Shown: one piece after another, positions 2,356 to 41,302 of the stretch
Layout of the letters: every line of letters starts with the position of its first letter
Numbering within the stretch: the stretch's first letter is position 1
Assembly: GCA_016938035.1 (NCBI GenBank)
Contig: JAFGVK010000107.1
Span: 1 to 64,000 of the forward strand
Source: Deltaproteobacteria bacterium
GTDB taxonomy: Bacteria; Myxococcota_A; UBA796; GCA-2862545
Length of the DNA stretch: 64,000 nt
Direction: 5' to 3'
Translations under genes and position numbers: made by a program
Notes under the pieces: model-generated
What the model was told of the DNA's origin: nothing
Seen by the model: only the letters and a program-made list of their open reading frames with translations
Database searches by the model: none

Positions 2356-2573
2356 GGCACGGGTCCATCAGCCGGAAGGGCTCACAGGAAGCGCTTCATC
2401 CTCCCGTAGGAAAAATCAGATGAGGTTGCTCGTCCAGTCTTCCAGACCGCAGACGGGCGCCGGGAGCGCTAGGCGTGTCGGCGCGCGACCGCCGTTCCAC
2501 GGGAAGGAAGGTTGCTTTGGTGCACGACTAGCGCAGAAACAAGGCGACGCGTCAAGAGGCCAGCGGATCGGTG
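2356..2573 (-). repeat. Dispersed ~217-bp structured intergenic element, copy A (inverted)
   Basis: One of four related intergenic copies in the window, the only one in reverse orientation (218 bp). Read on the minus strand it starts CACCGATCCGCTGGCCTCT and ends GATGGACCCGTGCC. It keeps the blocks shared by all copies: GGCCTCT, GGAACGGCGGTC, CGCCGA, GATGAAGCGCT and CCTGTGAG. Local stems are retained: CGGCG/CGCCG with a six-base loop, GTCT-GGA-AGAC, and the palindrome GAAGCGCTTC. The flanking GGCAC and terminal GTGCC are complementary here. It lies between convergent dnaB and the dehydrogenase gene, five bases from the latter's stop. There is no conserved reading frame. See the finding for the family. 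Confidence 0.85.
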
Positions 2574-2578
2574 CCCAG

Positions 2579-3745
2579 CTACCCCACCAGGGACTCCACC
2601 AGGGGCAGCCCCCGCGCGGCGAGGCGCACCAGGAGCGGCCTCGGCGGCACCGCGACCTCCAGCGGCCGTGCGCCGGGCGCCACCAGGCCCGAGGCCTGCA
2701 TGTGGGTCACCGCCGCCGCGGGGAAGGCGGTGCTCCGCTCCATCGCCGAGAAGCCTGTGGCGCTGTCCCACCTGTCGACCATCTCGAAGCGGATCTCCCC
2801 CTCCCCACCCCCCAGGAGGGTCCCTGCGCAGCTCACCCGGAGCAGCACCAGGTCCCGCACGTCGTCGAAGCGGATCCTGGGCTCTACCACCGCCTCCAGC
2901 AGGCGCCGTGGGACCACCGCCGCCCCGCCCACCTCCACCGGGTCGAGCGAGAGCAGGCCCAGGTCCTGGAGCAGCTTGATGCGGTCCCTGTGGCCCTGGT
3001 AGCGGATGGTCTTGTAGTCGAACCGATCCACCCGCCCCTCGAAGCTGTACGGGGCGGTGGAGGTGCCCCCAGAGGTCACGAAGGCCTCGAGCGGAGGGAA
3101 CCCCTCGAAACGGATCGACTCCAGCTCCTCCAGGCAGGGCACCTCCCCGATCTGCCCATCCCGCAGCACTACCCCCACCCCCTGGTACTCGTTGGTGAGG
3201 CCGGTGATCGAGAACACCAGCTCGTAGCCCAGCGGCCCCCGCGGGTCCTGGGTCAGCCCCCCCACCCGTTGCCGCACCTCCCTCGGGGTCTCCATCGCCT
3301 CGATCCCCGCGGCGGCCAGGGTGTTGACCAGCCCCGGAGCGAGCCCGCAGTCCGGCACCACGCTCACGCCAGCGGCCACAGCGCGGGGGTGCAGCGCCAG
3401 CTCCTGCTGCACGATCGACGTGTTCCCGCCCAGGTCGTTGAAGTGCGCACCCGCTGCCACTGCCGCCTGAGCCAGGCCGAGGTTCAGCCAATAGGCGGAG
3501 GCAGAGAGCACCGCGTCCACCCCCCCCAAGGCCGCGGTCACCGCCGCCACGTCCCGCGCGTCCAGCTGGGCACCCCGCACCACCTCGCCAGCGCCGAGGC
3601 GAGACAGGTGGGCCATGGCGCCCTCCAGCGCCGCCGGATCTAGGTCGAACAGGCGGATCTCGTCGGCCTCACCGTGGGTAAAGAGGTCATAGGCCGCGGC
3701 GCGCCCCGTGCGCCCTGCCCCGATGATCGCGTAGCGGTACCCCAT
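2579..3745 (-). CDS. Saccharopine/lysine dehydrogenase-like oxidoreductase
   Basis: Probable NAD(P)-dependent oxidoreductase of the saccharopine dehydrogenase/lysine 6-dehydrogenase superfamily, cytoplasmic. The N-terminus is a Rossmann fold with IIGAGRTGRAA (residues 7-17) followed by the acidic nucleotide-binding stretch LFDLDP. The central DCGLAPGLVNTLAA segment is characteristic of this superfamily. The length of 388 residues fits lysine dehydrogenases better than the longer saccharopine reductases. The start is well supported by AGGAGT six bases before the ATG. The gene stands alone. The true substrate (lysine, saccharopine or another amino-acid adduct) cannot be told from sequence alone. 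Confidence 0.8.
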   Translation of the reverse strand: MGYRYAIIGAGRTGRAAAYDLFTHGEADEIRLFDLDPAALEGAMAHLSRLGAGEVVRGAQLDARDVAAVTAALGGVDAVLSASAYWLNLGLAQAAVAAGAHFNDLGGNTSIVQQELALHPRAVAAGVSVVPDCGLAPGLVNTLAAAGIEAMETPREVRQRVGGLTQDPRGPLGYELVFSITGLTNEYQGVGVVLRDGQIGEVPCLEELESIRFEGFPPLEAFVTSGGTSTAPYSFEGRVDRFDYKTIRYQGHRDRIKLLQDLGLLSLDPVEVGGAAVVPRRLLEAVVEPRIRFDDVRDLVLLRVSCAGTLLGGGEGEIRFEMVDRWDSATGFSAMERSTAFPAAAVTHMQASGLVAPGARPLEVAVPPRPLLVRLAARGLPLVESLVG

Positions 3746-3840
3746 CTGCGACTCCTTGCGTGTGGTGGAGCCCAGGGTACCTCAGTTCCAGGACGCGTCC
3801 CCCCTCGCGCGGGCCCGATGCCGTAGGCTTGGGGCGGCGA

Positions 3841-4998
3841 TCAGGTCGCGGGGTCCTTCTGTGAGGCGATGATGTGCTCCCAGCGGACGGTGCCCCTGGC
3901 GTGATCCGGGCGCGCGACACTGGCCCTGCCCACCTCGCGGAGGCCGGCGGCCCTCAGGGCGGTGACCGTTGGCTCGACGGTGTCCACCACCCCGGCGGGG
4001 TGCAGCCCGTCGCCGATGACGATGATGGCGTGCCCGCCATCCTCCAGCGCGGCCGCCATCGACCGGGTCCAGGTCTTGGTGTCCTCCGCCCAGACCCTGC
4101 GCGCCTGCTTGGCCCCCTCCTGACGCCAGGAGCGGCGCGAGCCGATCTCCCGGTCGATCGCCTCCGCCTCCACGTCGCCCAGCCAGACCCGGCGGATGTG
4201 CTGCAGCGGCAGGTAGTCGTAGGTGGACGGGTAAGGCGGCGAGGTGACCACCAGGTCCACCTTAGGGCGAACCCGCAGCTGCCGCGCGTCCTGGAGGTCG
4301 AGGCGGGTCTCTGGGGTCCCCTCAGGCACAAGCTCGCGCAGCGCGACCATCCGCCGGGCCAGCTCACGGGCCTTCTTGTGGAACAGCACCGGCGCGGTGC
4401 CCTCGGGCCTGCGGTGCTTCACCCGCTTGGCGGAGGTGTCGGAATTGCGCCAGCTGGTCTTCACCACGATGCTGGAGAAGATCACCTCCAGCCAGGCGCG
4501 CGTCGGCCCCTCCACCTCGGCGATCTGGGTCCGGAGCGCCCACAGCTCCGCCAGGACGAAGTCCGCGTACCACTGCCCCAGGGCCTCGCGGATCCACTCG
4601 GGGGGCTCCTCCAGCTTTCCTCTCGCGGCGGCGGTCATCCTCCTGGCGTGGGAGCGCAGCTCGGTGAGCAGCTCGTCCGATGGGGTGGAGGTGCGCGCCC
4701 TCGCCACCCTCACCGCGACCTGGGACAGGTCCCTGCCCTCTGTCTCCAGCCCGGCGATCCGCCCCTCCACCAGCACGGTGCCACCGCCACAGAAGGGGTC
4801 TAGCAGCCGCCGCGCGGGGAAGAGCCGCACCAGATCTCTGGCCGCGTCCGGGTGCAGCCCCGCGGGGTAGGTGTGGAAGCCGTGGGTCCCCCTCTCCACC
4901 TCGTCGGCGTGGCGCAGGGCGCCTAACAGCGCCTCGGCGATCTTGGGGTCTCCGGTGGTGAGGCGCTCCTGGTGATCCAGCCGGGCTGCCTGTCGCAT
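3841..4998 (-). CDS. Orphan DNA/RNA methyltransferase (TSPPY type)
   Basis: S-adenosylmethionine-dependent methyltransferase of 385 residues. The SAM-binding motif DPFCGGGTVLVEG lies at about residues 67-79 and the catalytic motif TSPPYPSTYDY at about 252-262. The order SAM motif first, catalytic motif second, and the Ser-Pro-Pro-Tyr form point to N4-cytosine or TRM11-like RNA/DNA amino-methyltransferases. The segment VKTSWRNSDTSAKRVKH is unusual and may aid target recognition. I prefer the ATG at 4998, which has AGGAG upstream, over an in-frame GTG at 5031. No restriction endonuclease or specificity gene is adjacent, so it is an orphan enzyme. Whether the target is DNA or RNA is open. Confidence 0.75.
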   Translation of the reverse strand: MRQAARLDHQERLTTGDPKIAEALLGALRHADEVERGTHGFHTYPAGLHPDAARDLVRLFPARRLLDPFCGGGTVLVEGRIAGLETEGRDLSQVAVRVARARTSTPSDELLTELRSHARRMTAAARGKLEEPPEWIREALGQWYADFVLAELWALRTQIAEVEGPTRAWLEVIFSSIVVKTSWRNSDTSAKRVKHRRPEGTAPVLFHKKARELARRMVALRELVPEGTPETRLDLQDARQLRVRPKVDLVVTSPPYPSTYDYLPLQHIRRVWLGDVEAEAIDREIGSRRSWRQEGAKQARRVWAEDTKTWTRSMAAALEDGGHAIIVIGDGLHPAGVVDTVEPTVTALRAAGLREVGRASVARPDHARGTVRWEHIIASQKDPAT

Positions 4999-5244
4999 GT
5001 CGTGAACTCCTGGTGCGGGACCGGCTATCACGCAGCGGCGGGAATTTCCCCCCTCTTCGCCGCCGCCGGTGCGCGGTGCGGCGACGCGCGCCCGGTCCTT
5101 TGACCAACGCCAGCGCGCTGACGGGCCCAGGCGCGGAGAATCCAGGGGTGGACTACCCCGGCCCCACCCCGCTTCGCTCCGGTGTTGACCGGCGCCCGCC
5201 GCTGGTGTCTGCTAGTCCACCGTCCCCCCTGCCCTGGAGCGCCG

Positions 5245-5997
5245 ATGTCCGTCCCCCAACCAGGAGCCCGCCCCAGCCTGGTCCAGCTCGCCAGATACCA
5301 GACCGGCGAGCTCAGCGGCGCCGAGCTGGCGTGGGTGGAGGCGTGGCTCCTGGAGAACGAGGAGGGGCGCGCCTATGTCGAGGAGCTCAGGCGCGCTCAG
5401 GCCGAGAGGTCCCCGCTCGACGCGATGACCCTCCGCGCGCGCGAGGAGGAGGACCGGGGCAGCAACTCCACCTTCTTGTTGCTGATGTCCATCCCGGTGA
5501 TGGTGATGATCCTCTCGTTGGCGGTCTACCTGCTCTTCCCCATAGGGCCTTCCGAGGAGGTCACCGACGAGCCCTCCGTGCAGATGAGGGGCGAGGCGCA
5601 GCTGGAGACGTACTTCCTAGAGGACGAGTACCTCGTCCCCTACCAGGGCGCGGCCCTGGGCGAGGGCGACATCCTCGGCTTCCAGGTCGCTCCTGCCAAC
5701 CAGCGGTCGGTGGTGCTGGTGTCGGTGGACGGCGCCGGCACCATCTCCGTGTTCTACCCAGAGGGCGGAGACGAGCCCTTCGCCATCCCCAGCTCCTACG
5801 AGCTCGCCCCCCTCCCCGGCAGCGTGGAGCTGGACGACGCGCCGGGACCAGAGGTCTTCGTGGCGATCTTCGGGGTGGACGTGCCCACCGCCTCTCAGGC
5901 GGTCCACACCGCCTGGATCAACGGCGAGGCAGACGGCATCATGGCCTGGGCCTCCCACACGGCCTGGGCCGACGCGGAGCTCGTCGCGCGCCGCTGA
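5245..5997 (+). CDS. ActD/anti-sigma-like single-pass membrane protein
   Basis: A 250-residue protein. Residues 10-60 (PSLVQLARYQTGELSGAELA and following) resemble the N-terminal helical anti-sigma/zinc-finger-like module of myxobacterial ActD-type proteins, but lack the His/Cys zinc ligands. One strongly hydrophobic segment follows at about 77-99. The remaining 150 residues are predicted outside the membrane and form a beta-rich domain of the sort seen in DUF4384-like proteins. The ATG at 5245 has TGGAG upstream; an in-frame start at 5182 is less likely. No sigma factor is adjacent, so a role in regulation is inference. A TAGTCC hexamer at 5213-5218 may be the -10 element. Confidence 0.65.
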   Translation: MSVPQPGARPSLVQLARYQTGELSGAELAWVEAWLLENEEGRAYVEELRRAQAERSPLDAMTLRAREEEDRGSNSTFLLLMSIPVMVMILSLAVYLLFPIGPSEEVTDEPSVQMRGEAQLETYFLEDEYLVPYQGAALGEGDILGFQVAPANQRSVVLVSVDGAGTISVFYPEGGDEPFAIPSSYELAPLPGSVELDDAPGPEVFVAIFGVDVPTASQAVHTAWINGEADGIMAWASHTAWADAELVARR

Positions 5998-6084
5998 CCC
6001 CACAGGGGATCGCCCCCCCCGGAGAGGTCCTTCGATCCGAGGAGCGAGCGCGCCGCCCGCGCCCCGCACGCGTGACGAGGCGAG

Positions 6085-6301
6085 CACCGCTCCGCTGGCC
6101 TCTCGACGCGTGTCCTTGTTCCTCCGCTCGTCGCGCACAAAAGCACGCTTCTTCCAAAGGGAACGGCGGTCACACGCCGACATGCGTAGCGACTCGGCGC
6201 CCGTTTACAGTGTGGATCATTCGACGAGCGACTTCATCGGATGATTCCAGTGGAATGATGAAGCGCTTCCTGTGAGACTGTCCGGCTGCTTGACCCGTGC
6301 C
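6085..6301 (+). repeat. Dispersed ~217-bp structured intergenic element, copy B
   Basis: This 217-bp copy starts CACCGCTCCGCTGGCCTCT and ends TTGACCCGTGCC. GGAACGGCGGTC lies at 6160-6171 and GATGAAGCGCT at 6257-6267. The third hairpin is changed here to AGTG-TGGAT-CATT, where the others have AGTCT-GGA-AGACT: the C-G pair has become G-C, a compensatory change. The long hairpin CTTCATC/GATGAAG contains the inner stem ATTCC-AGT-GGAAT. The copy lies between convergent genes, 87 bases after the left stop and 105 before the right one. Confidence 0.85.
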
Positions 6302-6323
6302 ACGAGGCGAAGGGTCGCGGGAG

Positions 6324-6346
6324 CCTGTCGGCCTGGGGCCGGCAGG
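6324..6346. terminator. Bidirectional hairpin downstream of copy B
   Basis: CCTGTCGGCC and GGCCGGCAGG form a continuous 10-bp stem (one G-U pair) with a three-base loop. It sits between two convergent genes and could end transcription from either side. No T-tract is present. Confidence 0.5.
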
Positions 6347-6406
6347 ACACGGGGACCGAGCGCGCTCGCGCGCAGCCAGCACGGCGTCGAGCGAGCCGGT
6401 GCCCGA

Positions 6407-6949
6407 TCAGCCCTCGTTCGAATCCCTGCCCGGCAGGTCATCCACCACCCTCACCCACCGCTGCAGCGCCGGCAGCACCTCCTGGCCCCACTCGGGCGCG
6501 GTGCGCAGGGCGGTGAACTGGCGGAACAGCGCCCCGACCACCAGGTAGGCCTCCTCATAGAGGAACATGCGGTCGTGGATCGCCTCCTCGCCGCCCCCCA
6601 CCACCTGCGGGAGCTTGAGCTGGGTGATGTGCAGCTCGGCCCCCTTGAGGGTGAGCAGGTACTCCCGCTCGTCGCGGCGGAAGCCCAGCCGGACCTCGTG
6701 CAGCACCTTTCCCCCGGCCAGCGCGGCGCGGGCCTCCAGGGTGATGGAGGCGTTCTCGCCCGTCATCACCGCCAGGACCTTGGCCTCGTCGGGGTTGCGG
6801 AACGCCAGCCGCTGATCGACCCACACGTTGACCGTACCGATCGGCTCGCCCAGATCGAAGAGGTTCTCGTGCTGCTCGGAGTGCCACCACAGCCAGGTTG
6901 TGAACTCGACCGCTAGGTGCGGGAGGACAGGGGCTCCTTCTGCAGACAT
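6407..6949 (-). CDS. Partner protein of the RdgC-like gene
   Basis: A 180-residue cytoplasmic protein, MSAEGAPVLPHLAVEFTTWL at its start, with no signal peptide or membrane segment. It has aromatic N-terminal stretches (WLWWHSEQHENLFDLGEP) and a mixed alpha/beta pattern. I do not recognise a named family. Its ATG overlaps the stop of the RdgC-like gene in a TGATG, so the two are translationally coupled and probably act together, perhaps as one split protein in the way RdgC has several domains. The gene ends near a strong hairpin. Function inferred only from coupling. Confidence 0.65.
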   Translation of the reverse strand: MSAEGAPVLPHLAVEFTTWLWWHSEQHENLFDLGEPIGTVNVWVDQRLAFRNPDEAKVLAVMTGENASITLEARAALAGGKVLHEVRLGFRRDEREYLLTLKGAELHITQLKLPQVVGGGEEAIHDRMFLYEEAYLVVGALFRQFTALRTAPEWGQEVLPALQRWVRVVDDLPGRDSNEG

Positions 6950-7560
6950 CAGCGCACCCCGTGGAGGTTTGCGGGAGAACCGGCGAGCAGGGACTCGACC
7001 ACTGCCTCGTCCTCGACCCAGTCGAGGGGAGAGAGCGGCACCAGGGTGAGCCCGAAGGTGTTGCGAAAGCGCTTGCGGAACCTGTCCATCATGGACTCGG
7101 AGAGCGAGTGCAGCAGCAGGTATCCCTGGGGGATGTTCCAGCAGGCCTCAGTGACCGCGACCCTGGGGAGGGTGCGCTTCAGCCACTCTGCCTCCAGCGC
7201 CTCCTTCATCTCGGCCTTCACCGAGCCAGGGCAGCGCTCCTTGTTGCGCTCAGCGGCCCACAGCTCACAGCGCTTGGCGAGGGTCGCGGAGAACAGCTTG
7301 GCGGGAAGCGACTTCTTGTCCACCCGCAGGGCGAAGACCGCGTAGTCGCCAAACAGCCAGCGGTCCACGTCGTTGAATTCCGTGTCGAGGAGGTTCTGGT
7401 AGTTACACCAGCCCTCTACCTCCTCCTTTCCGACCTCGGTGAGAGGCTCCTGGAAGGCGTTGGTAGCGAACAGATCGGGGTAGACGGAGCGGAAGTCAGC
7501 GGGGACCTCCCCCTCGACCCTAAGCCTGCGAACCGTCATCGCACCGCCGGTGATACCCAT
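6949..7560 (-). CDS. RdgC-like recombination-associated protein
   Basis: A 203-residue protein resembling the shortened RdgC-like proteins of deltaproteobacteria. The start MGITGGAMTVRRLRVEG, the DVDRWLFGDYAVFALRVDKKSLP segment (written here only as landmarks DRWLFGDY and LRVDKK), and the RFRKRFRNTFGLTLVPLSP end match the general RdgC plan. RdgC binds DNA and modulates RecA filaments in proteobacteria. This version is shorter than the roughly 300-residue enterobacterial protein. The ATG at 7560 has GGAG five bases upstream. It is the first gene of a coupled pair. Assignment rests on pattern recognition and is moderate. Confidence 0.6.
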   Translation of the reverse strand: MGITGGAMTVRRLRVEGEVPADFRSVYPDLFATNAFQEPLTEVGKEEVEGWCNYQNLLDTEFNDVDRWLFGDYAVFALRVDKKSLPAKLFSATLAKRCELWAAERNKERCPGSVKAEMKEALEAEWLKRTLPRVAVTEACWNIPQGYLLLHSLSESMMDRFRKRFRNTFGLTLVPLSPLDWVEDEAVVESLLAGSPANLHGVR

Positions 7561-7617
7561 GCGTGCTCCAGAGTGACGTAAGAGGTGAAGCGAGCCCTAG
7601 GACCCGACGGGCTCAGA

Positions 7618-8442
7618 TCAGACCGAGCCCATCTCGTGGAGGGCGTGGCGGAAGACCACCACCTCGCCGCCCTTGGTGTTCATGCTGATCTCGAAGCGCG
7701 AGAACCACCCAACGGTGCCCTGGAGACGGTCCCCCGAGACGAGCACCACCTCTACCTCTGCGGCGGTGTCGAGATACCGGAACAGGCGCGACGTAGAGAT
7801 CGTGTAGCGGTCCTTGGGCGTCGGCGGCGGGACCAGGCCCAGCGCCGCGACCTTCTTGTCGCTCTTGATCGCCTTCTTGATCGCCTTCCAGTCCGCGGGG
7901 GGGTGGGCGTAGAGCATCGACAGCTTGTGGATCTCTCGGGCCTCTTGCTCCTTCGCCGGCGCCATCATCACCGCGTAGGGCTCCACCGAGACGATCGTGC
8001 CCTCGACCACCTCGCCTCCGACCAGCGCGACCCGCAGTGGGGCGCCGGAGACCTGGTAGGCGTCGAGCACGGAGCGGGTGGGGTTCTCTGCCGCGTACAC
8101 GGTCTGGCGGCGACGCCGGAGCACGATCTCCTGGTCAACGTGCCCGCGGGCGATTTGAACCGCGAGCGACCAGGGCAGCTCGTGATCCTTCTGAATGCGG
8201 CGCGCCTTCTCTTGCAGCGCCATGCGCTCGAGCGCCTCACTCAGCTCGACCCGTCCCTGCGCGACGCCCATGGCCAGCTGGAAGGGCATGCCCTGCGCGT
8301 GCAGCTCCTCGGCGCGCTCCTTGAGCCTGGGATCCTCACGACGAACCGGACGGGGCGCCGGCTTCCGCGCAGCGGGCCTCGGCTTCGGCTTGGGAGCGGA
8401 AGGAGTGGGGTTAGGATTGATGTATAGGACCTTTCGCACCAC
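7618..8442 (-). CDS. Double LSm (Hfq-like) RNA-binding protein
   Basis: A 274-residue protein. Residues 1-40 are a Pro/Lys/Arg-rich basic tail. Residues 50-110 hold two copies of a helical motif (GMPFQLAMGVAQG and ELPWSLAVQIARG). Residues 127-180 (APLRVALVGGEVVEGTIVSV) and 215-270 (VEVVLVSGDRLQGTVGWFSR, then VVFRHALHEM) look like two LSm folds. The second closely follows Hfq: Hfq has LVNGxxLQGxIxxFD and YKHAI at the corresponding places. The protein may therefore be an RNA chaperone in which two LSm units sit on one chain. I chose the GTG at 8442, which has GGAG six bases upstream, over an ATG at 8499 with no binding site. It is followed by the RdgC-like pair. Confidence 0.6.
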   Translation of the reverse strand: MVRKVLYINPNPTPSAPKPKPRPAARKPAPRPVRREDPRLKERAEELHAQGMPFQLAMGVAQGRVELSEALERMALQEKARRIQKDHELPWSLAVQIARGHVDQEIVLRRRRQTVYAAENPTRSVLDAYQVSGAPLRVALVGGEVVEGTIVSVEPYAVMMAPAKEQEAREIHKLSMLYAHPPADWKAIKKAIKSDKKVAALGLVPPPTPKDRYTISTSRLFRYLDTAAEVEVVLVSGDRLQGTVGWFSRFEISMNTKGGEVVVFRHALHEMGSV

Positions 8443-8503
8443 GGTTGACTCCGGGAAGGGTGGGATACATATGGATAATCCGGCACTCAGGCAAGCCATT
8501 TGT

Positions 8504-9811: not shown

Positions 9812-9939
9812 AGCAGCCTCCCAGCACGACCACATAGCGGCTCCTAGGGCCACGTGCCGCACCGCGGTGCGCATATCCATCATCCACGTCGAGGACACCA
9901 CACAGTGCCCAGAGCAGTGGAGCGGACAGGACCTCGCCT

Positions 9940-11855: not shown

Positions 11856-12011
11856 GCTGTCTCCCGTCCTGTTCGCTACGGGCCAAAGGAGGACCCTATT
11901 GCACGCGCTGTCCGACCCCTAACGCATCAGCGCGTCTCACCTTACGCCAGCGCCCAACCTCCCACCTTGGGAACAGCGGAGATAGGATAGTCTCTCACCG
12001 GAGGTAGCCTC

Positions 12012-13091: not shown

Positions 13092-13114
13092 TCCTCGTCG
13101 CCAGGCCGAGACAC

Positions 13115-18660: not shown

Positions 18661-18670
18661 GGTGAGGGCG

Positions 18671-27263: not shown

Positions 27264-27770
27264 ATGATCCGCATGGCGCTCGCCGCTCTCGTCCTGGTGC
27301 TGGGGATTGCCCTCACCACGCCCGCCCTGGCAGCCCCCGCCACGGACTTCACCCTGCGCGACATCAACGGCGAGAGCGTGCAGCTGGATCAGTACCGCGG
27401 GCAGGTCATCCTCCTGTCCTTCTGGGCCACCTGGTGCGGCCCCTGCAAAGAGGAGATGCCCCACCTGCAGGCGCTGTACGAGGAGCAGAAGGACCAGGGC
27501 TTCGTAGTGCTCTCCGTCTCGTCCGACGACGCCCGGACCGCCTCCAGAGTCAAGCCCTATATCAGGCAGAAGGGCTACACCTTCCCCGTGGTGCTCGACC
27601 GCGACTCCTCGGTCACCGGCACCTACAACCCGTCGAAGACCCTGCCGTACTCCATCCTCATCGGGCGTGACTTCGAGATCGCCCAGATCCACTCGGGGTA
27701 CAACCCCGGTGACGAGGTGAAGATCAAGGCCGAGGTGGTAGAGCTGCTTGCGGCACCCAAGCCCGAGTAG
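27264..27770 (+). CDS. TlpA/ResA-like periplasmic thioredoxin
   Basis: A 168-residue exported thiol-disulfide protein. The signal peptide (MIRMALAALVLVLGIALTTP, ends at ALA-AP about 24) is followed by an AhpC/TSA-Redoxin-like thioredoxin fold. The active site is WATWCGPCKEEMP with Cys58 and Cys61. The LPYSILIGRD segment holds the expected cis-Pro. Probably reduces or isomerises periplasmic disulfides, for example in cytochrome c maturation. AAGGAG lies seven bases before the ATG. It is monocistronic, divergent from the regulator and immediately followed by copy C of the dispersed element. Confidence 0.88.
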   Translation: MIRMALAALVLVLGIALTTPALAAPATDFTLRDINGESVQLDQYRGQVILLSFWATWCGPCKEEMPHLQALYEEQKDQGFVVLSVSSDDARTASRVKPYIRQKGYTFPVVLDRDSSVTGTYNPSKTLPYSILIGRDFEIAQIHSGYNPGDEVKIKAEVVELLAAPKPE

Positions 27771-27780
27771 CTCGCGCTGG

Positions 27781-27993
27781 CACCGATCCGCAGGCCTCTC
27801 GACGCGTGTCCTTGTTCCTACGCTCGTCGCGTACAAAAGAGCGCTTCCTCGCTAGGGAACGGCGGTCGCACGCCGATGCTCCTGGCGACTCGGCGTCCGT
27901 ATACCGTCTGGAAGATTCGACGAGCACTTCATCTGATTCCTGTGGAAGGATGAAGCGCTTCCTGTGAGACTGTCCGGCTGATTGACCAGCGCC
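27781..27993 (+). repeat. Dispersed ~217-bp structured intergenic element, copy C
   Basis: This 213-bp copy fills nearly the whole convergent spacer. It begins 10 bases after the thioredoxin stop with CACCGATCCGCAGGCCTCT and ends with GATTGACCAGCGCC, seven bases before the barrel gene's stop. It keeps GGAACGGCGGTC, CGCCGA, GATGAAGCGCT and CCTGTGAG. Stems: CGGCG-GTCGCA-CGCCG, GTCT-GGA-AGAT (G-U), CTTCATC/GATGAAG with inner TTCC-TGT-GGAA. The first hairpin has the loop enlarged (TTCC, then TCGCTA, then GGGAA). Confidence 0.85.
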
Positions 27994-28000
27994 GCTCGCG

Positions 28001-29656
28001 CTAGAAGCTCGCCACCAGGCTCACCCTCGCGCCATCGAAGCCGGGCAGGGTGCGGCACTGCCCACCTGAGCAGCGGATCCCCGCCTTGTAGGCGCCGTAG
28101 AAGACCTTTGCGGTGAGCGCCGACGAGGGCTTCACCTGCAGCTCCAGCGCCCCGTAGAGGTCATCGGAGAGGTTGCCCGTGGTGTCGACCAGCGGGTTGG
28201 TGGTCCGATCCAGGTAGGCGATGAGGGCCACATCGGAGCCCTTCTGTATCGAGAAGGCGTTCTCCATCTCGAAGTAGTCCGACTGCTGGAGGGGGTTGAC
28301 GCCCCAGGAAAAATGCTCCATCCCCGCGGAGATGTTCCCCAGATAGCCGTGCCCCAGCGGGAACTTGAGGTCCAGGTCGCCGTGCACCTGCCGATCGGCG
28401 CCGTAGTCGGCCTCGCCCTGGTCGCGGCGATCCACCCGCACGCCGGCGTTGAGGAGCACAGCCCAGTGCCCCTGGATCAGCTCCAGCCCGGTAAGCCCGT
28501 GGACGATCGTCTCGGGGGTGCGGTTGAAGTGCAGCCCCCCCAGCTCCTCGTCGCGGAACAGCCCCAGGGAGGCGTAGGGGATGAGGCCGTCCCGAGCCGA
28601 CCAGTCCACCCTGAGGCGGGCCCCCACCAGATCGTTGGAGTTGAGGGCCGCAGCGGAGTCCTCGGAGGTGGACCGCTCGTACTCCAAGGTGGGCGCCACC
28701 GCCACCTCGTACAGCTCGCGCCCCAGGGTGCTGTTCACCCGCTCGGCGTTCTGGTAGTCCTTCGCCTCCAGCAGCCAGACCGTGCTCCCCCAGTAGGCAG
28801 CCGCAGACCCATAGAGCGCGTAGCCAGGCTCGGACGCCTCGCCGCCGAACAGGGTGTTGGTGGGGTAGGAGAAGTGATCCGCCTCCGCGTACCAGTCCAG
28901 GCCCAGGAGCCCCTGCGCCTCGACCGTCAGCCCTCCGATCACCGCGTCCGGTGGCCCCCCCAGCGCCGCAAGCCCCTCGGCCAGGCCCTGCTCGTCCACG
29001 AACTGCCAGGCGACCGCGTGGGCCCCCACGTTGGTCACCCCCAGCCCGAAGCGCTCTGCCCGGAGGCCGACCACGCTGTGGCGCAGGTCCCCAGAGATCC
29101 CCAGGTTGGGGTTGTCGAGCACCACCTGCTGCCGGTTGAGCTGCCCAGCCACCGCGGTGAGGTCCCACGCCCCGGGGTGCGCCACCGCCTTGACCCCCTG
29201 GATCGACGTGTCGACGTCGATGTCCACGTTGCGGTTCAGGTTGAGGGACACGCCCCGTCCAAAGGCGGCGTAAAAGTCACCGAGGTGGATCTGCCCCCAC
29301 CCGGTGTCCCGGCGCAGCGCCACCTTCTCCAGGTTGGCCCACGACGACCGCGGCAGCCAGCTCGTGGTCGAGGGATCCACCAGCTCACGCTCTACGTACA
29401 GCACGTCGTCGAGATAGTAGCGGTTCGCGCCCAGCGCCACCTCGTCGACCTGCGCCCAGACCTGCCACCCGCCACCCTGCCCGTGCACTGAGAGGCGGTT
29501 GACCTCCTCGACGTAGTTGAACACCGGCTGATCCGGGTGAGACGGGAGGCGCTGATCCAGGGTCCAGTAGCGGATCTTCAGCTCCTCGGTCACCGTCACC
29601 GGGAGCCCTCCTCCGTCCTTCCCCACAGCGGCCAAGGCGAACAGCAGCAGCGTCAC
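28001..29656 (-). CDS. Outer-membrane beta-barrel protein, DUF6029-like
   Basis: A 551-residue exported barrel. Short hydrophobic N-terminus MTLLLFALAAVG, then a long series of alternating amphipathic strands with aromatic girdle residues, ending in VSLVASF with a C-terminal Phe as required for barrel insertion. Segments such as LGDFYAAFGRGVSLNLNRN resemble the DUF6029 family found in several Gram-negative groups. Its GTG start overlaps the stop of the upstream DHDPS-fold gene (GTGA), so the pair is coupled. Ligand unknown. Confidence 0.7.
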   Translation of the reverse strand: MTLLLFALAAVGKDGGGLPVTVTEELKIRYWTLDQRLPSHPDQPVFNYVEEVNRLSVHGQGGGWQVWAQVDEVALGANRYYLDDVLYVERELVDPSTTSWLPRSSWANLEKVALRRDTGWGQIHLGDFYAAFGRGVSLNLNRNVDIDVDTSIQGVKAVAHPGAWDLTAVAGQLNRQQVVLDNPNLGISGDLRHSVVGLRAERFGLGVTNVGAHAVAWQFVDEQGLAEGLAALGGPPDAVIGGLTVEAQGLLGLDWYAEADHFSYPTNTLFGGEASEPGYALYGSAAAYWGSTVWLLEAKDYQNAERVNSTLGRELYEVAVAPTLEYERSTSEDSAAALNSNDLVGARLRVDWSARDGLIPYASLGLFRDEELGGLHFNRTPETIVHGLTGLELIQGHWAVLLNAGVRVDRRDQGEADYGADRQVHGDLDLKFPLGHGYLGNISAGMEHFSWGVNPLQQSDYFEMENAFSIQKGSDVALIAYLDRTTNPLVDTTGNLSDDLYGALELQVKPSSALTAKVFYGAYKAGIRCSGGQCRTLPGFDGARVSLVASF

Positions 29657-31629: not shown

Positions 31630-31644
31630 CGCGGGGTGTGGCCG

Positions 31645-33641: not shown

Positions 33642-33705
33642 AGGACCTCCTTGCCGAGTCGAGGCTCGGTCCCTATATCCGGGTCCGCGACTGTGAGGTT
33701 CTCCT

Positions 33706-33918
33706 ATGCCCATCTACGAATACGCCTGTGAGTCCTGCGGACACCGCTTTGAGCGCCTCGTCCGCCACGACGCCCTGCCCCCAGAGTGCCCCGAGTGCGG
33801 GGAGCCCACCCGCAAGCTGGTGAGCGCCGCCTCCTTTCAGCTCAAGGGATCTGGCTGGTACAAAGACCACTATGGTCTGAAGTCGGGTGGCAGCGCGGCC
33901 AAGGCCGGGGGCGAGTGA
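33706..33918 (+). CDS. FmdB-type zinc-ribbon protein
   Basis: A 70-residue protein of the FmdB/CxxC_CxxC_SSSS family. It starts MPIYEYACESCGHRFERLVR, with the first CxxC at 8-11 and the second CPEC at 28-31, and a C-terminal low-complexity tail (SGGSAAKAGGE). The family is common near metabolic genes and its role is uncertain. The ATG is preceded by a TATATC hexamer (33674-33679). The folD GTG follows directly after its stop. Confidence 0.85.
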   Translation: MPIYEYACESCGHRFERLVRHDALPPECPECGEPTRKLVSAASFQLKGSGWYKDHYGLKSGGSAAKAGGE

Positions 33919-33919
33919 G

Positions 33920-34774: not shown

Positions 34775-34832
34775 GAACAGTGACGCGGACGGCGGGTTCG
34801 GGATAGACAGCACCCCTCCCACAGGAGCCGTC

Positions 34833-35927
34833 ATGGAAGACCGCCGCACCCCGTTCACCTCCCTCCACGAAGCCGCCGGCGCCCGCATGGTGTCCTATGC
34901 CGGCTTCTCCATGCCCATCCAGTACAGCGGGCTGCAGGAGGAGCACCTGCGGGTGCGATCTGCGGTGGGGATCTTCGACGTCTCCCACATGGGCGAGATC
35001 CGGGTCAGCGGCCCCAAGGCCCTGGAGGCGGTGCAGCACCTGGTCACCAACGACGCGGGGCGCCTGGAGGTGGGACACGCCCTCTACGCCTGCATCTGCA
35101 ACGAGCGCGGCGGGGTCGTAGACGACACCATCGTCTACCGCACCGGTGCGTCCGAGTTCATGCTCTGCGTGAACGCTGCGAACCGCGCCAAGGACTGGGC
35201 GTGGCTCACCAGCCACAACCCTCACCCCGACCAGGCCACGATGGTGGACGAGGGCGACGACTGGGCGCAGATCGCCATCCAAGGGCCCAGGGCCGCAGAG
35301 CTGGTGAGCGCCCTGGGCGGAGCCCACCTCGCCGACCTGGGGACGTACCACTTCGCGCTGGACCAGGTCTTCGCGGGCGTCGCCGGCGCGATGGTGGCCC
35401 GCACTGGCTACACGGGCGAGGACGGCTTCGAGGTCTACCTGCCCGCACAGCTCGCGGAGCCGGTCTGGACCGCGCTGCTCGACGCGGGCGCCCCCCTGGG
35501 GGTGCTCCCGATCGGGCTGGGCGCCCGAGACACCCTCCGGCTGGAGGCCCGCTTCTGCCTGTACGGCCACGAGCTGGGCGACGAGATCTCACCACTCCAG
35601 GCTGGCCTGAACTGGACCATCGGCTGGAAGAAGGGCGACTTCATGGGCCGCGACGCGCTGCTGGCGCGGAGGGGCAAGGAGCCGCACCGCCTCGCCGGGC
35701 TGATCATGCAGGACCGCCGCATCCCCCGCGAGGGGATGAAGGTGATGGCGGGCGGGGAGGAGGTCGGCTGGATCACCTCTGGCACCCACTCCCCCTCGAT
35801 GGAGCGAGGGGTGGCGATGGCCTACCTCCGCCCGGACCTGCTCACCGAGGGCACCGAGGTGCAGGTGGACGTCCGCGGGCGCTTGGCCCCGGCCCAGGTC
35901 TTCAAGGGTCCCTTTATCAACCGCTGA
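34833..35927 (+). CDS. gcvT: Aminomethyltransferase (glycine cleavage T protein)
   Basis: A 364-residue T protein that transfers the methylene group from the lipoyl-bound aminomethyl of H protein to tetrahydrofolate. Landmarks: LHEAAGARMVSYAGFSMPIQ, FDVSHMGEI, ARTGYTGEDGFEVYLPA, LGARDTLRLEARFCLYGHEL and the C-terminal IGWKKGDFMGRDAL. AGGAG lies before the ATG. TAGACA at 34804-34809 may be the -10. It is followed after 18 bases by gcvH; gcvP is not in the window. Confidence 0.97.
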   Translation: MEDRRTPFTSLHEAAGARMVSYAGFSMPIQYSGLQEEHLRVRSAVGIFDVSHMGEIRVSGPKALEAVQHLVTNDAGRLEVGHALYACICNERGGVVDDTIVYRTGASEFMLCVNAANRAKDWAWLTSHNPHPDQATMVDEGDDWAQIAIQGPRAAELVSALGGAHLADLGTYHFALDQVFAGVAGAMVARTGYTGEDGFEVYLPAQLAEPVWTALLDAGAPLGVLPIGLGARDTLRLEARFCLYGHELGDEISPLQAGLNWTIGWKKGDFMGRDALLARRGKEPHRLAGLIMQDRRIPREGMKVMAGGEEVGWITSGTHSPSMERGVAMAYLRPDLLTEGTEVQVDVRGRLAPAQVFKGPFINR

Positions 35928-35945
35928 TTCCCACAGGAGCACGCT

Positions 35946-36329
35946 ATGAGCATCCCCGCTGACCGCAAGTACACCTCCCACGACGAGTGGGTCCTCCTCG
36001 ACGGCGACATCGCCACCATCGGGATCACCGACTTCGCCCAGGACGCCCTCGGCGACCTGGTGTTCATCGATCTGCCCGAGGCGGGCGCGACCTTCGCGGC
36101 GGGCGACGCCCTCTGCGAGGTGGAGTCGGTCAAGGCGGTGGCCGAGGTCTACGCCCCGGTCGGCGGCGAGGTCGTCGCAGTGAACGAGGAGCTGGACGGC
36201 AGCGAGGGCACGGTGAACTCCGACCCCTACGGCGCTGGCTGGCTGCTGAAGCTGCGCGTCACGGACGCCGCTGAGTTGGACGCGCTGATGGACGCCGCCG
36301 CCTACGAGGCCAAGGTCTCCGAGAGCTAG
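35946..36329 (+). CDS. gcvH: Glycine cleavage system H protein
   Basis: A 127-residue lipoyl carrier protein of the glycine cleavage complex. The lipoylated Lys63 lies in EVESVKAVAEVYAP. Start MSIPADRKYTSHDEWV is standard, with AGGAG before the ATG. It shares a transcript with gcvT and ends at a long hairpin before the convergent sigma factor gene. Confidence 0.97.
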   Translation: MSIPADRKYTSHDEWVLLDGDIATIGITDFAQDALGDLVFIDLPEAGATFAAGDALCEVESVKAVAEVYAPVGGEVVAVNEELDGSEGTVNSDPYGAGWLLKLRVTDAAELDALMDAAAYEAKVSES

Positions 36330-36350
36330 GCGCCATCCCCCCAGACGCAC

Positions 36351-36383
36351 CGCGCCCCAGAGGTTCATGGCCTCCGGGGCGCG
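36351..36383. terminator. Long hairpin between gcvH and the sigma factor gene
   Basis: CGCGCCCC (36351-36358) and GGGGCGCG (36376-36383) pair, extended by AGAGG/CCTCC with one mismatch around a 7-base loop. Convergent position, so probably a bidirectional terminator. The stem is about 13 bp. Confidence 0.65.
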
Positions 36384-36396
36384 CGGGCTGTGGGGA

Positions 36397-37272
36397 CTAG
36401 GCGGCGACCGAGAAATCCTCCAGCAGGCCGCGACGGCTCTGGTGCCTCAGCTTGCGCAGGGCCTTGATCTCGATCTGCCGAATGCGCTCTCTGGTGAGGG
36501 CGAAGCGGGCACCGATCTCCTCCAGAGAGTAGGCGGTGGGCTCGCCGATGCCGTAGCGCATCCGCACGACCTTCTCCTCGCGGAGGGTGAGCGAGGCCAG
36601 CGCGCGCTCGACCTGGAGGGTGAGCGCAGCCTGCTCCAGGGCCTCGCCGGGCTGCGGGGCGTCGTCATCCGCGACGAAGCTGAGGACCGAAGACTCGGAG
36701 TCCTCGGTGATGGCTGCGTCCAAGCTCAAGGTCTCGGCGGTGATCTTGACCAGGTCCGCCACCTCCTCCTCGTCGATCTCCAGGTGCTCGGCGAGCTCGG
36801 AGATGGTGGCCTCGCGACCCAGCTTCTGGAACATCCACTTGCGGGTCTGGTGGATGCGATTGACCACCTCCAGCTTGTAGATGGGGACCCTGATGGTGCG
36901 GATCTGCGACTCGATAGCCCGGACGATGGCCTGGCGGATCCACCACGAGGCGTAGGTGGAGAACTTGAAGCCCTTGTGGTAGTCGAACTTCTCGACCGCC
37001 CTCATCAGCCCGATGTTGCCCTCCTGGATCAGGTCCGAGAGGGGCATCCCGCGGTAGGCGTACTGCTTGGCGATGGAGACCACCAGCCGCAGATTGGCCA
37101 CGATCAGCTCGGCGCGGGCCCGATCACCGTCGACTCCTCCCGCCTCGATGCGCATCGCGACCGCGACCTCCCGCTCCGCGTTGAGGAGCCGCACCGCCCC
37201 CATGTCGCGGAGGTAGGTGTTGAGGGGGAGGGACGCGTCGTCGGCCTGGGTGCGGGGGGTAGGGCTGGACAT
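36397..37272 (-). CDS. Sigma-70 family (group 2-type) sigma factor
   Basis: A 291-residue sigma factor. It lacks region 1.1. Region 1.2 ([11 protein letters not shown]) is followed by region 2 ([40 protein letters not shown] and [13 protein letters not shown]), region 3 ([14 protein letters not shown]) and region 4 ([20 protein letters not shown]). It is of the RpoD/RpoS type rather than an ECF factor. The chosen ATG at 37272 has AGGAG six bases before it; an upstream frame extends to 37332. Upstream lies an almost perfect sigma-54 promoter (37307-37321) and a palindrome, so this factor is probably under RpoN control. Confidence 0.92.
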
Positions 37273-37306
37273 GAGCTGCTCCTGGAAGGTCGTTGCCCCA
37301 CATAGA

Positions 37307-37321
37307 GCAAGCATCGTGCCA
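37307..37321 (-). promoter_or_regulatory. Sigma-54 (-24/-12) promoter of the sigma factor gene
   Basis: On the minus strand TGGCACGATGCTTGC matches the RpoN consensus TGGCAC-N5-TTGC exactly, with the invariant GG and GC at the right spacing. Transcription would start about 12 bases downstream, leaving a short leader with AGGAG before the ATG at 37272. The strongest promoter-type signal I found for this factor. Confidence 0.75.
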
Positions 37322-37442
37322 CACCTCCCCATGCCTGACCCCCGGCGTGTATTCTGTCACCAGTGGTCGTTTCTCCCTACGCAATCGTCACGAGCTCGGC
37401 AGCGCCCCCCAGCCCGGCAGGGTGCGCCAGGACTGGGACGAC

Positions 37443-37459
37443 GTACAAAAATCTTGTAC
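37443..37459 (-). promoter_or_regulatory. Palindrome GTACAA-N5-TTGTAC, possible activator site
   Basis: A perfect 6-bp inverted repeat (GTACAA, AAATC, TTGTAC on the plus strand) sits about 125 bases upstream of the -24/-12 promoter, a typical place for a sigma-54 activator site. It is AT-rich in a GC-rich surrounding, which makes it stand out. Which regulator binds is unknown. Confidence 0.5.
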
Positions 37460-37624
37460 AACGACCAAGGACTGGACACCGCGGCCAGCGCCGAGGAGCG
37501 CGCGTCCCCGCTGGGGACGGGGCAGCCAGGAGGAGGAGCAGGCCCGTGCCAGGCCGGAGCTCGCGCTGAGGTGCCCTGTCGGCGCCGAGGGGGGAGGCGC
37601 AGCCGCAGCCCGCGCCCTCGCGGC

Positions 37625-38668
37625 CTACTCCCCTAGGGCCCCCAGCGGGTCGTCGGCCTCGCAGAGTGCCTCGGCCCGCGCCAGGAAGCGCCCCCAGTCG
37701 CCCCCCTCCTCGGCAAACATCGCGGCGAAGGCGTCTCCGCCGCGGTTGTAGACCTTGAACTGCGCCAGCCTGGCGTTGTTCCAAGGCTCGCGCTCCGCCC
37801 AGGCCCGCGCCTTGTCTGGACGTTCCAGGGGGAGCGCCTCTAGCCTCGCAGGGAGCCCGGCGTAGAGGGCCTCCTTGCGGAACCTGCGCGCGCCAGGGCT
37901 GAGGGTCTTGTCCTTGTAGACCGCGTCCAGCTCCTCGTACAGGCCGTGCAGGGCCTGGTTGAGGGTGGCGCTGTCCTGCCGCTTCACCAGCGCCTGGACG
38001 TAGGGTTCGCTGTCCGGCCCGTAGGTGTCGGCGAGGTAGGCCAGGGCCGCCTCGCGGCCGGTGAACTGGGCGAGGGACTCGTTGAACTGCACCTGCCCGG
38101 GACACCACACCGTGGCGTGGGTGAGCTCATGGAGCAGGGTCTCTGCCAGGCGGTACTCGGTCCAGTCGAGCATCGCGGGCAGGACAGGATCTCGGAACCA
38201 GCCCAAGGTCGAGTAGGCCCCAGCGGTGCGGACATACACCTCGTAGCCGCTGGCCTCGAGCCTGGCAGCCTCCTCTCTCGCTGCTGTCTCATCGAAGTAG
38301 CCGAGGTAGGGGACGCTCCCCACCACCGGGAACCACCACCTGCGCGGGCGGAAGGCGAGGGGCTCGCAAGCGGAGACGTTCCAGATCTTCTTGTCAAAGC
38401 CGAGCGCCACCGCCTCGTAGTTGTCGATGGGGTTCAGCCCGATCCGGTCTCCGAAGGCCTTGATCCGAGCGATCTGCCGCAGGCGCTCCTCCTGAGGCGC
38501 GGTCAGCGCCCCGCGAGCCAGCACCTCGTCCGTAGACACCCGCGCCTGGAGCAGGGTGAGCTGCCCCACCCCCTGCCGAGCGAGGTAGCCGGGCATGGAT
38601 CTGGGCGAGAGCGCCCAGATCGCGAGTCCCCCCAGCACGAGTCCAGCCACGAGGTGCCGCCTGTCCAT
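37625..38668 (-). CDS. Predicted aminopeptidase (COG4324-like), membrane-anchored
   Basis: A 347-residue zinc metallopeptidase-like protein. A short N-terminal anchor (RRHLVAGLVLGGLAIWAL) is followed by a soluble domain. LLHELTHATVW gives the HExxH site (His180, Glu181, His184), and NESLAQFTGREAA gives a third ligand (Glu197), as in the COG4324 predicted aminopeptidases. The GSVPYLGYFD segment is also typical. I start it at ATG 38668, with GGGAG upstream, rather than at 38704. Its substrates are unknown. The gene diverges from the TolQ-like gene. Confidence 0.8.
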   Translation of the reverse strand: MDRRHLVAGLVLGGLAIWALSPRSMPGYLARQGVGQLTLLQARVSTDEVLARGALTAPQEERLRQIARIKAFGDRIGLNPIDNYEAVALGFDKKIWNVSACEPLAFRPRRWWFPVVGSVPYLGYFDETAAREEAARLEASGYEVYVRTAGAYSTLGWFRDPVLPAMLDWTEYRLAETLLHELTHATVWCPGQVQFNESLAQFTGREAALAYLADTYGPDSEPYVQALVKRQDSATLNQALHGLYEELDAVYKDKTLSPGARRFRKEALYAGLPARLEALPLERPDKARAWAEREPWNNARLAQFKVYNRGGDAFAAMFAEEGGDWGRFLARAEALCEADDPLGALGE

Positions 38669-38757
38669 CCGCGCTCCCGGTAGTGAGGGCCCCCCTCCCC
38701 ACAACCAGTGCGGACAGGCGCCACCGCCCAGGCTACTACGAGCGCTCGGGAGGCGCG

Positions 38758-39375
38758 ATGATCGAGTACGTGATCAGCGGCGGTCCGGTGATGATCCCCA
38801 TAGGGCTGGCCTCGGTAGTGGCCCTGGCGGTGTTCCTGGAGCGGCTGTGGTCCCTGCGGCGGGCCAGGGTGCTGCCCCACGCCCTGCTGATGGAGGTGAT
38901 GGAGCAGCTGCGCCAGGGTCGGCACGACGACGCGCTGGTGCGGTGCCGCAGCGCGGACGTCGCGGTGGCCCGGGTGCTGGAGCAGGCCCTGATCTGCCGT
39001 GACAAACCCCGCGAGCGGGTGCGCGAGCGGCTGGAGGAGATCGGCAGGCGCGAGGCGGCGGAGCTGGAGCGCTACATCCCAGTGCTCGGCACCATCGCGT
39101 CGATCTCGCCGCTGCTCGGCCTGTTGGGGACCGTGGGCGGCATGATCCTCACCTTCCAGATCATCCAGGAGCAGGGGCTAGGGAACGTCGGGAACCTGGC
39201 CGGGGGCATCTCCCAGGCGCTGGTCACGACCTTCGCGGGGCTCTCGGTGGGGATCCCCGCGGTGGTGGGAAACCGCTACCTCCTGGCGAAGGTGGACGCC
39301 CTGCTCCTCGACCTGGAGGAGGCCTCGCTGGGGGCCCTGGACCTGCTCTACGGCGAGCAACGGGAGGAGCCGTGA
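38758..39375 (+). CDS. TolQ/ExbB/MotA-type proton channel subunit
   Basis: A 205-residue inner-membrane protein with three hydrophobic segments (about 8-30, 105-130 and 150-175) and the conserved YIPVLGTIASISPLLGLLGT/VGGMI-type core. Such proteins pair with an ExbD/TolR protein and use proton flow to energise TonB or the Tol-Pal complex. GGGAGG lies before the ATG at 38758, and TACTAC at 38734-38739 may be the -10. The next gene overlaps it by four bases. No TonB or TolA gene is nearby. Confidence 0.92.
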   Translation: MIEYVISGGPVMIPIGLASVVALAVFLERLWSLRRARVLPHALLMEVMEQLRQGRHDDALVRCRSADVAVARVLEQALICRDKPRERVRERLEEIGRREAAELERYIPVLGTIASISPLLGLLGTVGGMILTFQIIQEQGLGNVGNLAGGISQALVTTFAGLSVGIPAVVGNRYLLAKVDALLLDLEEASLGALDLLYGEQREEP

Positions 39376-39818
39376 GGTTCGCGGGCGCGCGCCGGGCCGA
39401 TCCGATCCTGGACATCACCCCCATGATCGACATCGTCTTCCAGCTGGTGCTGTTCTTCATGGTGTCCACCACCTTCATCAACGCCCCTGGGCTCCAGGTG
39501 GACCTCCCCAGATCCTCGTCCCAGGTGGTAATCTCCGACGCCCGGGACGTGTCGATCTGGATGACCTGCGGCACCAAGGCCGCGGACGGCTCGTGCAGCG
39601 AGGGGGCGGTCTACGTGGAGGACAAGCCGGTGAGCGCCGCCGCGCTGAGCGACATCTTCAAGCGGGCAGCGGCCAGAGACCCCGACACCCTGGTGGTGCT
39701 GAAGGCCGACGTGGGCGTGCGCCACGGGCAGGTGGTGGCGGTGATGGACCTGGCCCGCTCGCACGGGCTGACCCGCCTGGCTATCGCCACTGAGGTGCCA
39801 GAGGGGGGCGGACTCTAG
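39372..39818 (+). CDS. ExbD/TolR-type stator protein
   Basis: A 148-residue single-span membrane protein. The N-terminal membrane segment ILDITPMIDIVFQLVLFFMV contains the essential proton-carrying Asp20, followed by a periplasmic domain (about 45-148) with the repeated TLVVLKADVGVRHGQVV pattern of TolR/ExbD. The GTG start overlaps the TolQ-like gene (GTGA). The two should form the proton channel unit. Confidence 0.92.
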   Translation: MRFAGARRADPILDITPMIDIVFQLVLFFMVSTTFINAPGLQVDLPRSSSQVVISDARDVSIWMTCGTKAADGSCSEGAVYVEDKPVSAAALSDIFKRAAARDPDTLVVLKADVGVRHGQVVAVMDLARSHGLTRLAIATEVPEGGGL

Positions 39819-40143
39819 CGCGGCCACCGGGGACGCACGCCCGTCGCCCCTCGGGCGGCTTCGCCGTCGGCGTCCGCCCGTCGTCCGCGACAGACGCCTA
39901 CCCGCGCACGCCTCCCGAACCGGGCTTCGCCCTTCGGCCGCCACGGACGCACCTGCCTCGATGGGCGAGGACCAGCGGAGCCCCTCGGCGCGCCAACGGG
40001 ACTGGATGCACTTCCTACCCTGACTCTGAGGACCTGTGACGCCCTCAACGCCCCACGACACGCTCGCGCGCTTGGCGCGCTCCGCACCCTCAGTTATCCT
40101 GAGCGTACCGCCCTCCCCCTCCCCCTCTCCCGCCTGGTGCTCC
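39819..40143 (+). other. Unexplained spacer with stem-loops
   Basis: This is 325 bases between the ExbD-like gene and ftsB. It holds a hairpin at 39915-39937, with CCGAA/TTCGG and GGGC-TTC-GCCC arms around a CC bulge, and an imperfect direct repeat (CCACCGGGGACGCACGCC near 39824 and CCACGGACGCACCTGCC near 39941). CTCAG-TTATC-CTGAG (40090-40104) is another small hairpin close to the start of ftsB. No known RNA family is recognised. A small RNA or a multi-part terminator/leader is possible. Confidence 0.35.
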
Positions 40144-40458
40144 ATGTCCACCAAGACCCTCCAGCGACTGATCTTTTGGGTGATCCCCGCCCTGCTGTTG
40201 GTGGCGGTAGTCCTCGCGACGGTGTGGGGAGACCACGGGGTGCTCACCAGGGACAGGTACCAGCAGGAGCTCCGACAGGAGCAGGCGGCGCTGGCTGCGC
40301 TGGAGCGCGAGAACCAGCGGCTCTCGCGGGAGATCTCCCTCATGGATCGCGACCCGCGGGTCCTGCGCCGGGTGGTGGCCGACGAGCTTCACTGGGCCAA
40401 GGACGGCGCGGTCATCTACGATTTCTCAGACGAGGAAGCGCCCGCACAGGCGCCCTGA
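40144..40458 (+). CDS. ftsB: Septum formation initiator FtsB/DivIC family
   Basis: A 104-residue bitopic cell-division protein. One membrane segment (about 8-28, LIFWVIPALLLVAVVL) is followed by a periplasmic coiled coil (QELRQEQAALAALERENQRL) and an RVVADELHWAKDGAVIYDF end that is typical of the family. FtsB bridges FtsL and FtsQ in the divisome. The ATG at 40144 is preferred to the upstream GTG-type frame start at 40036, which adds a non-homologous, Ser/Pro-rich leader. It is four bases from the next gene. Confidence 0.85.
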   Translation: MSTKTLQRLIFWVIPALLLVAVVLATVWGDHGVLTRDRYQQELRQEQAALAALERENQRLSREISLMDRDPRVLRRVVADELHWAKDGAVIYDFSDEEAPAQAP

Positions 40459-40462
40459 CCCG

Positions 40463-41038
40463 ATGGACGCCCCCCTGCTCACCGACTGGTCCTCGCTCCT
40501 CGCGGCCTCACCCCTCGCGGTCCGGGGGGCGGTGGGCCTGGCGGGCCTGCTGTTGCTCCTGGCGGGCGCCCGCCTCTACCGGCCGGCCCTGGGGCTCACC
40601 GCCTTCGCCTTTGGGGCCCTGCTGGCGGTGGGTGGGCTCAGGGCCCTCGCCCCCTATCTGCCCGGCGTAGACGCCCCCACCCTGCTGCTTGCGGGCGCGG
40701 TGATCCTGGGGCTGGTGAGCGCCGCGGTGGCCACCTTCGCCCACAGGGTCGGGCTCGCCTCTGCAGGCGCGATCCTCGGCCTTGGGGGCGGCGCTGCGGC
40801 CTGGCAGGCGGCGACCGGCGCCCCAGCACCCCTGTGGGTGCCCCTGGGGGGGGCGGCGCTGGGCGCGCTGGCGCTGCCCTTCGCCTTCGGATCGCTGCTC
40901 CTTGTCCTCACCCCCGCGGTGGGCGCCCTGTGCCTGACCGGGGCGGCCGGCTGGGGGCAGACCCTGCCGGTGATGGGCGGGCTGTGGCTGGGAGGCACCG
41001 CCATCCAGTGGCTGACGCGGAAGCGGAAGCGGGCCTGA
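40463..41038 (+). CDS. Polytopic membrane protein (DUF4203/TMEM198-like)
   Basis: A 191-residue protein consisting almost entirely of about six to seven hydrophobic, Gly/Ala/Leu-rich segments (for example AGLLLLLAGARLYRPALGLT and AFGALLAVGG), ending in a basic tail RKRKRA. It resembles the repeated small-residue pattern of DUF4203/TMEM198-type membrane proteins. It follows ftsB by four bases, so it is probably cotranscribed. Function unknown. Confidence 0.65.
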   Translation: MDAPLLTDWSSLLAASPLAVRGAVGLAGLLLLLAGARLYRPALGLTAFAFGALLAVGGLRALAPYLPGVDAPTLLLAGAVILGLVSAAVATFAHRVGLASAGAILGLGGGAAAWQAATGAPAPLWVPLGGAALGALALPFAFGSLLLVLTPAVGALCLTGAAGWGQTLPVMGGLWLGGTAIQWLTRKRKRA

Positions 41039-41085
41039 GCTCCGAGTCGCGCGTCGCAGGGGGGCCTCCCCCTCGCCCGACCGGG

Positions 41086-41302
41086 CCCCGATCCGCTGGC
41101 CTCTCGACGGGCGTCCTTACCGCTGCGCTAGTCACACAATAAAGTACGTTTTCTCCCAAGGGAACGGCGGTCACACGCCGAGACGCCGAGCGACTCGGCG
41201 CCCGTATACAGTCTGGAAGACTCGACGAGCAACTCCATCGGATGCCTCCTGTGGACTGATGAAGCGCTCCCTGTGAGACTGTCCCGCTGATTGACCCGCG
41301 CC
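41086..41302 (+). repeat. Dispersed ~217-bp structured intergenic element, copy D
   Basis: This 217-bp copy lies between convergent genes, 47 bases after the membrane protein's stop and eight before the stop of the giant synthetase. It starts CCCCGATCCGCTGGCCTCT and ends GATTGACCCGCGCC. GGAACGGCGGTC, CGCCGA and GATGAAGCGCT are present. The hairpin AGTCT-GGA-AGACT is complete, TCCC-AA-GGGA replaces the usual first hairpin, and CGCCGAG/CTCGGCG gives an alternative pairing with the CGGCG stem. Compared with others it has one mismatch in CTCCATC/GATGAAG. Confidence 0.85.

Follow-up and report, generated by a model that had tools for sequence, protein, structure and literature searches.

Miniature non-autonomous DNA transposons (MITEs) of bacteria, such as MITEAba12 (PMC6382973), the Correia element and the Chunjie element (Geobacter uraniireducens, 235 bp; PMC10969869), are short and non-coding, carry terminal inverted repeats, are flanked by target duplications of fixed length, and occur in many intergenic copies together with truncated derivatives. 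They are usually described as AT-rich, and intergenic placement is general for them (PMC10969869). In Streptococcus pneumoniae, the RUP, BOX and SPRITE repeats are likewise high-copy, intergenic, clustered, nested and enriched between convergent genes (PMC3049150). Pneumococcal IS elements share this convergent bias, which has been explained by tolerance of insertions downstream of genes (PMC3049150). Here we describe a repeat family in a deltaproteobacterial draft genome which, in all likelihood, is a MITE family. Apart from base composition, it has every one of the MITE properties listed above and resembles the pneumococcal repeats in each of theirs, although the latter belong to an unrelated host and the likeness is drawn from descriptions rather than from sequence alignment. 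In contrast to the known MITEs, the element is GC-rich, has a target duplication of 8 bp (9 bp in MITEAba12; PMC6382973), is unlike them in sequence as far as searched, and has no parent IS found for it. The family is new, the kind of element is ordinary and no new structured RNA is involved.

The window, a stretch of 64,000 nucleotides of one contig, holds four copies of the repeat (Table 1). The first-pass annotation had described four copies of about 217 bp with common sequence blocks, and the sequence confirms them, with a mean column identity of 84%. Target duplications and terminal repeats were used to reset the borders, giving lengths of 215-220 bp.

Table 1. Element copies and flanking target duplications in the window
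Feature	Position	Strand	Sequence or length	Details	Basis
Copy A	2356..2575	-	220 bp	locus L047; match 1-219, 196.7 bits	HMM
Copy A target duplication, 5' side	2576..2583	-	GGTAGCTG	7/8 match to 3' side	sequence
Copy A target duplication, 3' side	2348..2355	-	GGTAGCTC		sequence
Copy B	6083..6301	+	219 bp	locus L016; match 2-219, 238.7 bits	HMM
Copy B target duplication, left	6075..6082	+	ACGAGGCG	8/8 match	sequence
Copy B target duplication, right	6302..6309	+	ACGAGGCG	8/8 match	sequence
Copy C	27779..27993	+	215 bp	match 1-219, 229.0 bits	HMM
Copy C target duplication, left	27771..27778	+	CTCGCGCT	immediately 3' of TAG stop of gene 27264-27770	sequence, gene call
Copy C target duplication, right	27995..28002	+	CTCGCGCT	preceded by one additional G	sequence, gene call
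Copy D	41084..41302	+	219 bp	match 1-218, 212.5 bits	HMM
Copy D target duplication, left	41076..41083	+	CCCGACCG	8/8 match	sequence
Copy D target duplication, right	41303..41310	+	CCCGACCG	8/8 match	sequence, gene call

Aligning the copies gives a consensus of 219 bp, which is too small to encode a transposase. The alignment starts sharply at GGCACCGATCC... and stops just as sharply, either at ...GACCAGTGCC or at ...GGACCGGTGCC, and this abruptness marks the imperfect inverted repeats found there as the ends of the element (GGCACCG and CGGTGCC, imperfect inwards). Directly outside the copies lie 8-bp direct repeats with 78% identity, compared with 35% (sd 1.9%) in shuffles. This signal is restricted to length 8, since lengths of 3-7 and 9-13 are near the null, and in the extended set, where an offset of 1 bp was allowed, the 8-bp flanks differ at no more than two positions in 83 of 98 copies. 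Target-site duplications had been named beforehand as what would decide for a mobile element, and those of 8 bp are present. Perfect duplications also flank shortened forms of 140 and 157 bp, and a deletion derivative of 67 bp exists.

The element has also inserted into other repeats. Locus L002 is a triple nest, in which an old copy is split by a second MITE with a 6-bp duplication (AACGTT), and this second MITE is in turn split by a young copy. At the occupied site in the second MITE, the two sides read TACGAACC and TAAGGACC, whereas a single TAAGAACC is present in its uninterrupted copies. At L057, an element copy lies within another element copy and CGCTGGCC is duplicated. Both comparisons of occupied with empty sites (L002 and L057) are between repeats of the same genome. 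We assign the family to the MITEs because of its terminal inverted repeats, its 8-bp target duplications, its insertions into other repeats and the lack of support for an RNA. Of the candidate identities originally listed, the non-autonomous mobile element is thus the one borne out by the duplications and the nested insertions.

We propose that a DDE-type transposase acting in trans would recognise the GGCACCG ends and cut the target with an 8-base stagger, so that gap repair would leave the duplication. The 89% complete draft yielded no autonomous element sharing these ends. When ends with matching duplications were paired at other distances, nothing emerged beyond deletion derivatives, composites formed by nesting, and pairs due to chance. 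The IS6/IS26 family has ends GGCACTGTTGCAAA and an 8-bp duplication. It resembles the element in the length of this duplication and in the first seven bases of the younger right ends (GGCACTG), but the likeness ends after these seven bases and no IS6-type transposase (PF13610) was found in the assembly, which is also without matches to the IS1595, IS256 and ISL3 transposase families. The parent may have been lost from the genome, lie in the missing 11% of the draft, or belong to another family.

Mobilisation by an ISAzo13-family transposase was first suggested by a transposase C-terminus lying beside the 3' end of the element. Decayed remnants of this transposase family occur in the genome (L125 on C110, L126 on C129 and L071 on C173) and in one relative (L172 on G004 C63). 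Among 21 genomes of the host's family, PF07592 matches are found in the host and only one other, and at L071 the last 48 bp of the element begin about 40 bp past the stop codon of an ISAzo13-like C-terminus. However, the remnants seem to terminate in AGGG(G/C)(C/T)C(A/G)CCG rather than GGCACCG, as read by eye from decayed sequence. Moreover, element position 172, at which the L071 junction lies, is also the insertion site of an unrelated MITE in several copies. On account of these other ends and this shared junction, ISAzo13 was dropped as parent, a role we regard as very improbable for it, and the simplest reading of L071 would be that an ISAzo13 element has entered a copy.

The first-pass annotation had also offered a structured noncoding RNA or RNA switch with a conserved fold, a reading to which we now attach next to no credence. 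Short complementary blocks are indeed found in the consensus, and its minus strand folds better than its own shuffles (z -4.9). However, when the helices put forward as conserved (CGGCG/CGCCG, AGTCT/AGACT and CTTCATC/GATGAAG) were followed through 81 copies, one-sided changes broke pairs and no clear covariation rose above background. The C-G to G-C double change that had been noted in copy B is real but is seen in only one of these 81 copies. RNAalifold returned essentially no consensus structure for either strand, and on the plus strand individual copies fold barely better than shuffles (mean z -1.6). A comparison with Rfam, including the HEARO/OMEGA RNAs, matched no described family, either over the window at the gathering threshold or for one copy at E<=1. 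Orientation relative to codirectional neighbouring genes is unbiased (32 same, 21 opposite). With neutral-looking decay in addition, one candidate RNA family is struck off, and what stands in its place is a MITE family of high copy number in a GC-rich, uncultured bacterium.

This decay can be timed against the flanking duplications. Copies differ from the consensus by 13-14%, compared with the 6-8% per copy implied by decay of the duplications, and since divergence is not below this clock, the copies look neutral after insertion. The surplus may represent divergence among source copies before insertion. The tree of copies is star-like, and terminal branches account for 92% of its length. Sites of the same base vary unequally, so that constraint may have acted at some positions in the source copies, and the existence of several source copies could likewise account for this unevenness. 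Singleton substitutions had been tried as a test of constraint, but repeated substitutions proved common and the duplication clock replaced them. Once inserted, copies of the element would then decay without detectable constraint.

Our gene calls, made with a custom codon-usage gene caller, gave 13 convergent junctions in the window, the number originally reported, with a copy in four of them, and also served to assess placement throughout the genome. Among 126 classifiable copies, 65 are convergent (52%), 53 codirectional (42%), 8 divergent (6%) and none intragenic, whereas intergenic length predicts 23% convergent, 49% codirectional and 28% divergent (convergent excess, p=3e-12; divergent deficit, p=2e-9). 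Stretches gathered later through the left end instead of the inner motif yielded 13 convergent, 16 codirectional and 1 divergent among 30 classifiable copies. The claim that all copies lie between convergent genes accordingly holds for the window but not for the genome, and the four of four reflects a genuine bias without being a rule. Insertions would mostly persist where neither a gene nor a promoter is broken, as downstream of genes, and this would give the excess between convergent genes.

A smaller, provisional effect concerns the stop codons themselves. Of 39 convergent insertions, 5 went into spacers that had measured no more than 20 bp (expected 1.4%, p=2e-4) and 11 are no further than 12 bp from a stop codon (expected 9.9%, p=0.001); these expectations derive from 37 background junctions and our own gene calls, with several thresholds viewed and the effect first seen in these very data. 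Such stop adjacency applies to three of the four copies in the window. The TAG stop codon of gene 2579-3745 is within the 5' target duplication of copy A, the right duplication of copy C shares bases with the stop codon (CTA, 28001-28003) of gene 28001-29656, and that of copy D adjoins the stop codon (CTA, 41311-41313) of gene 41311-45975. Copies against or between facing stop codons were seen at 2576-2583, 27771-28003 and 41303-41313 of the window, and also at loci L269, L077, L075 and L092.

The excess at facing stops is not fully explained by tolerance alone. The family might target, or be selectively kept at, the meeting point of convergent stop codons, where the 8-bp duplication spares both genes, and might thereby separate colliding transcripts genome-wide, but we think this unlikely. 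Similarly doubtful is the proposal that copies in convergent spacers, although mobile by origin, have been recruited to serve as transcription barriers in both directions or as 3'-end elements. Both the genome-wide convergent excess and the enrichment in spacers of at most 20 bp and within 12 bp of stops speak for co-option, and to this extent the bidirectional 3'-end element of the first-pass annotation retains support, though only positional. However, the pneumococcal mobile repeats and IS elements cited above show the same bias, attributed there to tolerance (PMC3049150), and conservation of the convergent copies does not exceed that of the others (p=0.34), which argues against retention for function; they also vary at the same sites. 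Around copy C, the one copy scanned, no intrinsic-terminator-like site (GC stem followed by a T run) was detected on either strand, whereas SPRITE resembles a terminator (PMC3049150). Stop-codon adjacency poses a small testable question, namely whether transposons target the ends of convergent genes or are tolerated there.

The host genome is a 5.19-Mb draft in 246 contigs, for which we estimate roughly 120-200 copies, without an exact count. At least 44 matches to copy C were obtained when 40 of 210 first-look candidates were scored. An inner 20-base pattern matched 122 times and the 18-base left end 121 times, each with 0 matches for its reversed control, and the fetched stretches yielded 177 distinct element matches, 98 of them full-length. 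Contigs of the draft begin or finish within a copy at L019, L022, L030, L044, L045 and L103, and because contigs are broken inside copies the real copy number is probably underestimated. Among 71 genomes of its class, the element was found in the host only: sets of 57 and 70 related genomes gave no full-length match, and just a few of them had short common stretches. It was also absent from named GTDB genomes and viral contigs in an exact pattern search, and from the plasmids and phages searched. Occurrence in a single genome fits the expectation of recent lineage-specific amplification.

Two further repeats of this genome have inserted into copies of the element. The second MITE, of about 140 bp and unrelated to the first, has ends GAGCC...CTCGTAA and an apparent 6-bp duplication (for example AAGGAT or AACGTT). 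It has inserted several times at element position 172 and has 24 distinct matches in the fetched DNA; its loci include L065:1859-1997, L052, L088, L166 and L002 (contigs C97, C4, C76, C132 and C146). The other repeat, which is MITE-like, measures about 270-290 bp, has ends GACAGGA...TCCTGTC and gave 43 distinct matches in the fetched DNA; it has also inserted in element copies, near position 155-160, at L076, L098 and L263 (contigs C200, C202 and C65).

Repeats in three other genera of the host's family contain, with few mismatches, one stretch of the element, approximately CGTCGCGTACAAAAGTACGCTTCC with its GCGTAC/GTACGC hairpin (L142/L146 in G001; L129/L143 in G004; L128/L140 and L130/L144 in G006). 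The repeats that host this motif differ from one another, being palindromic or tandem.
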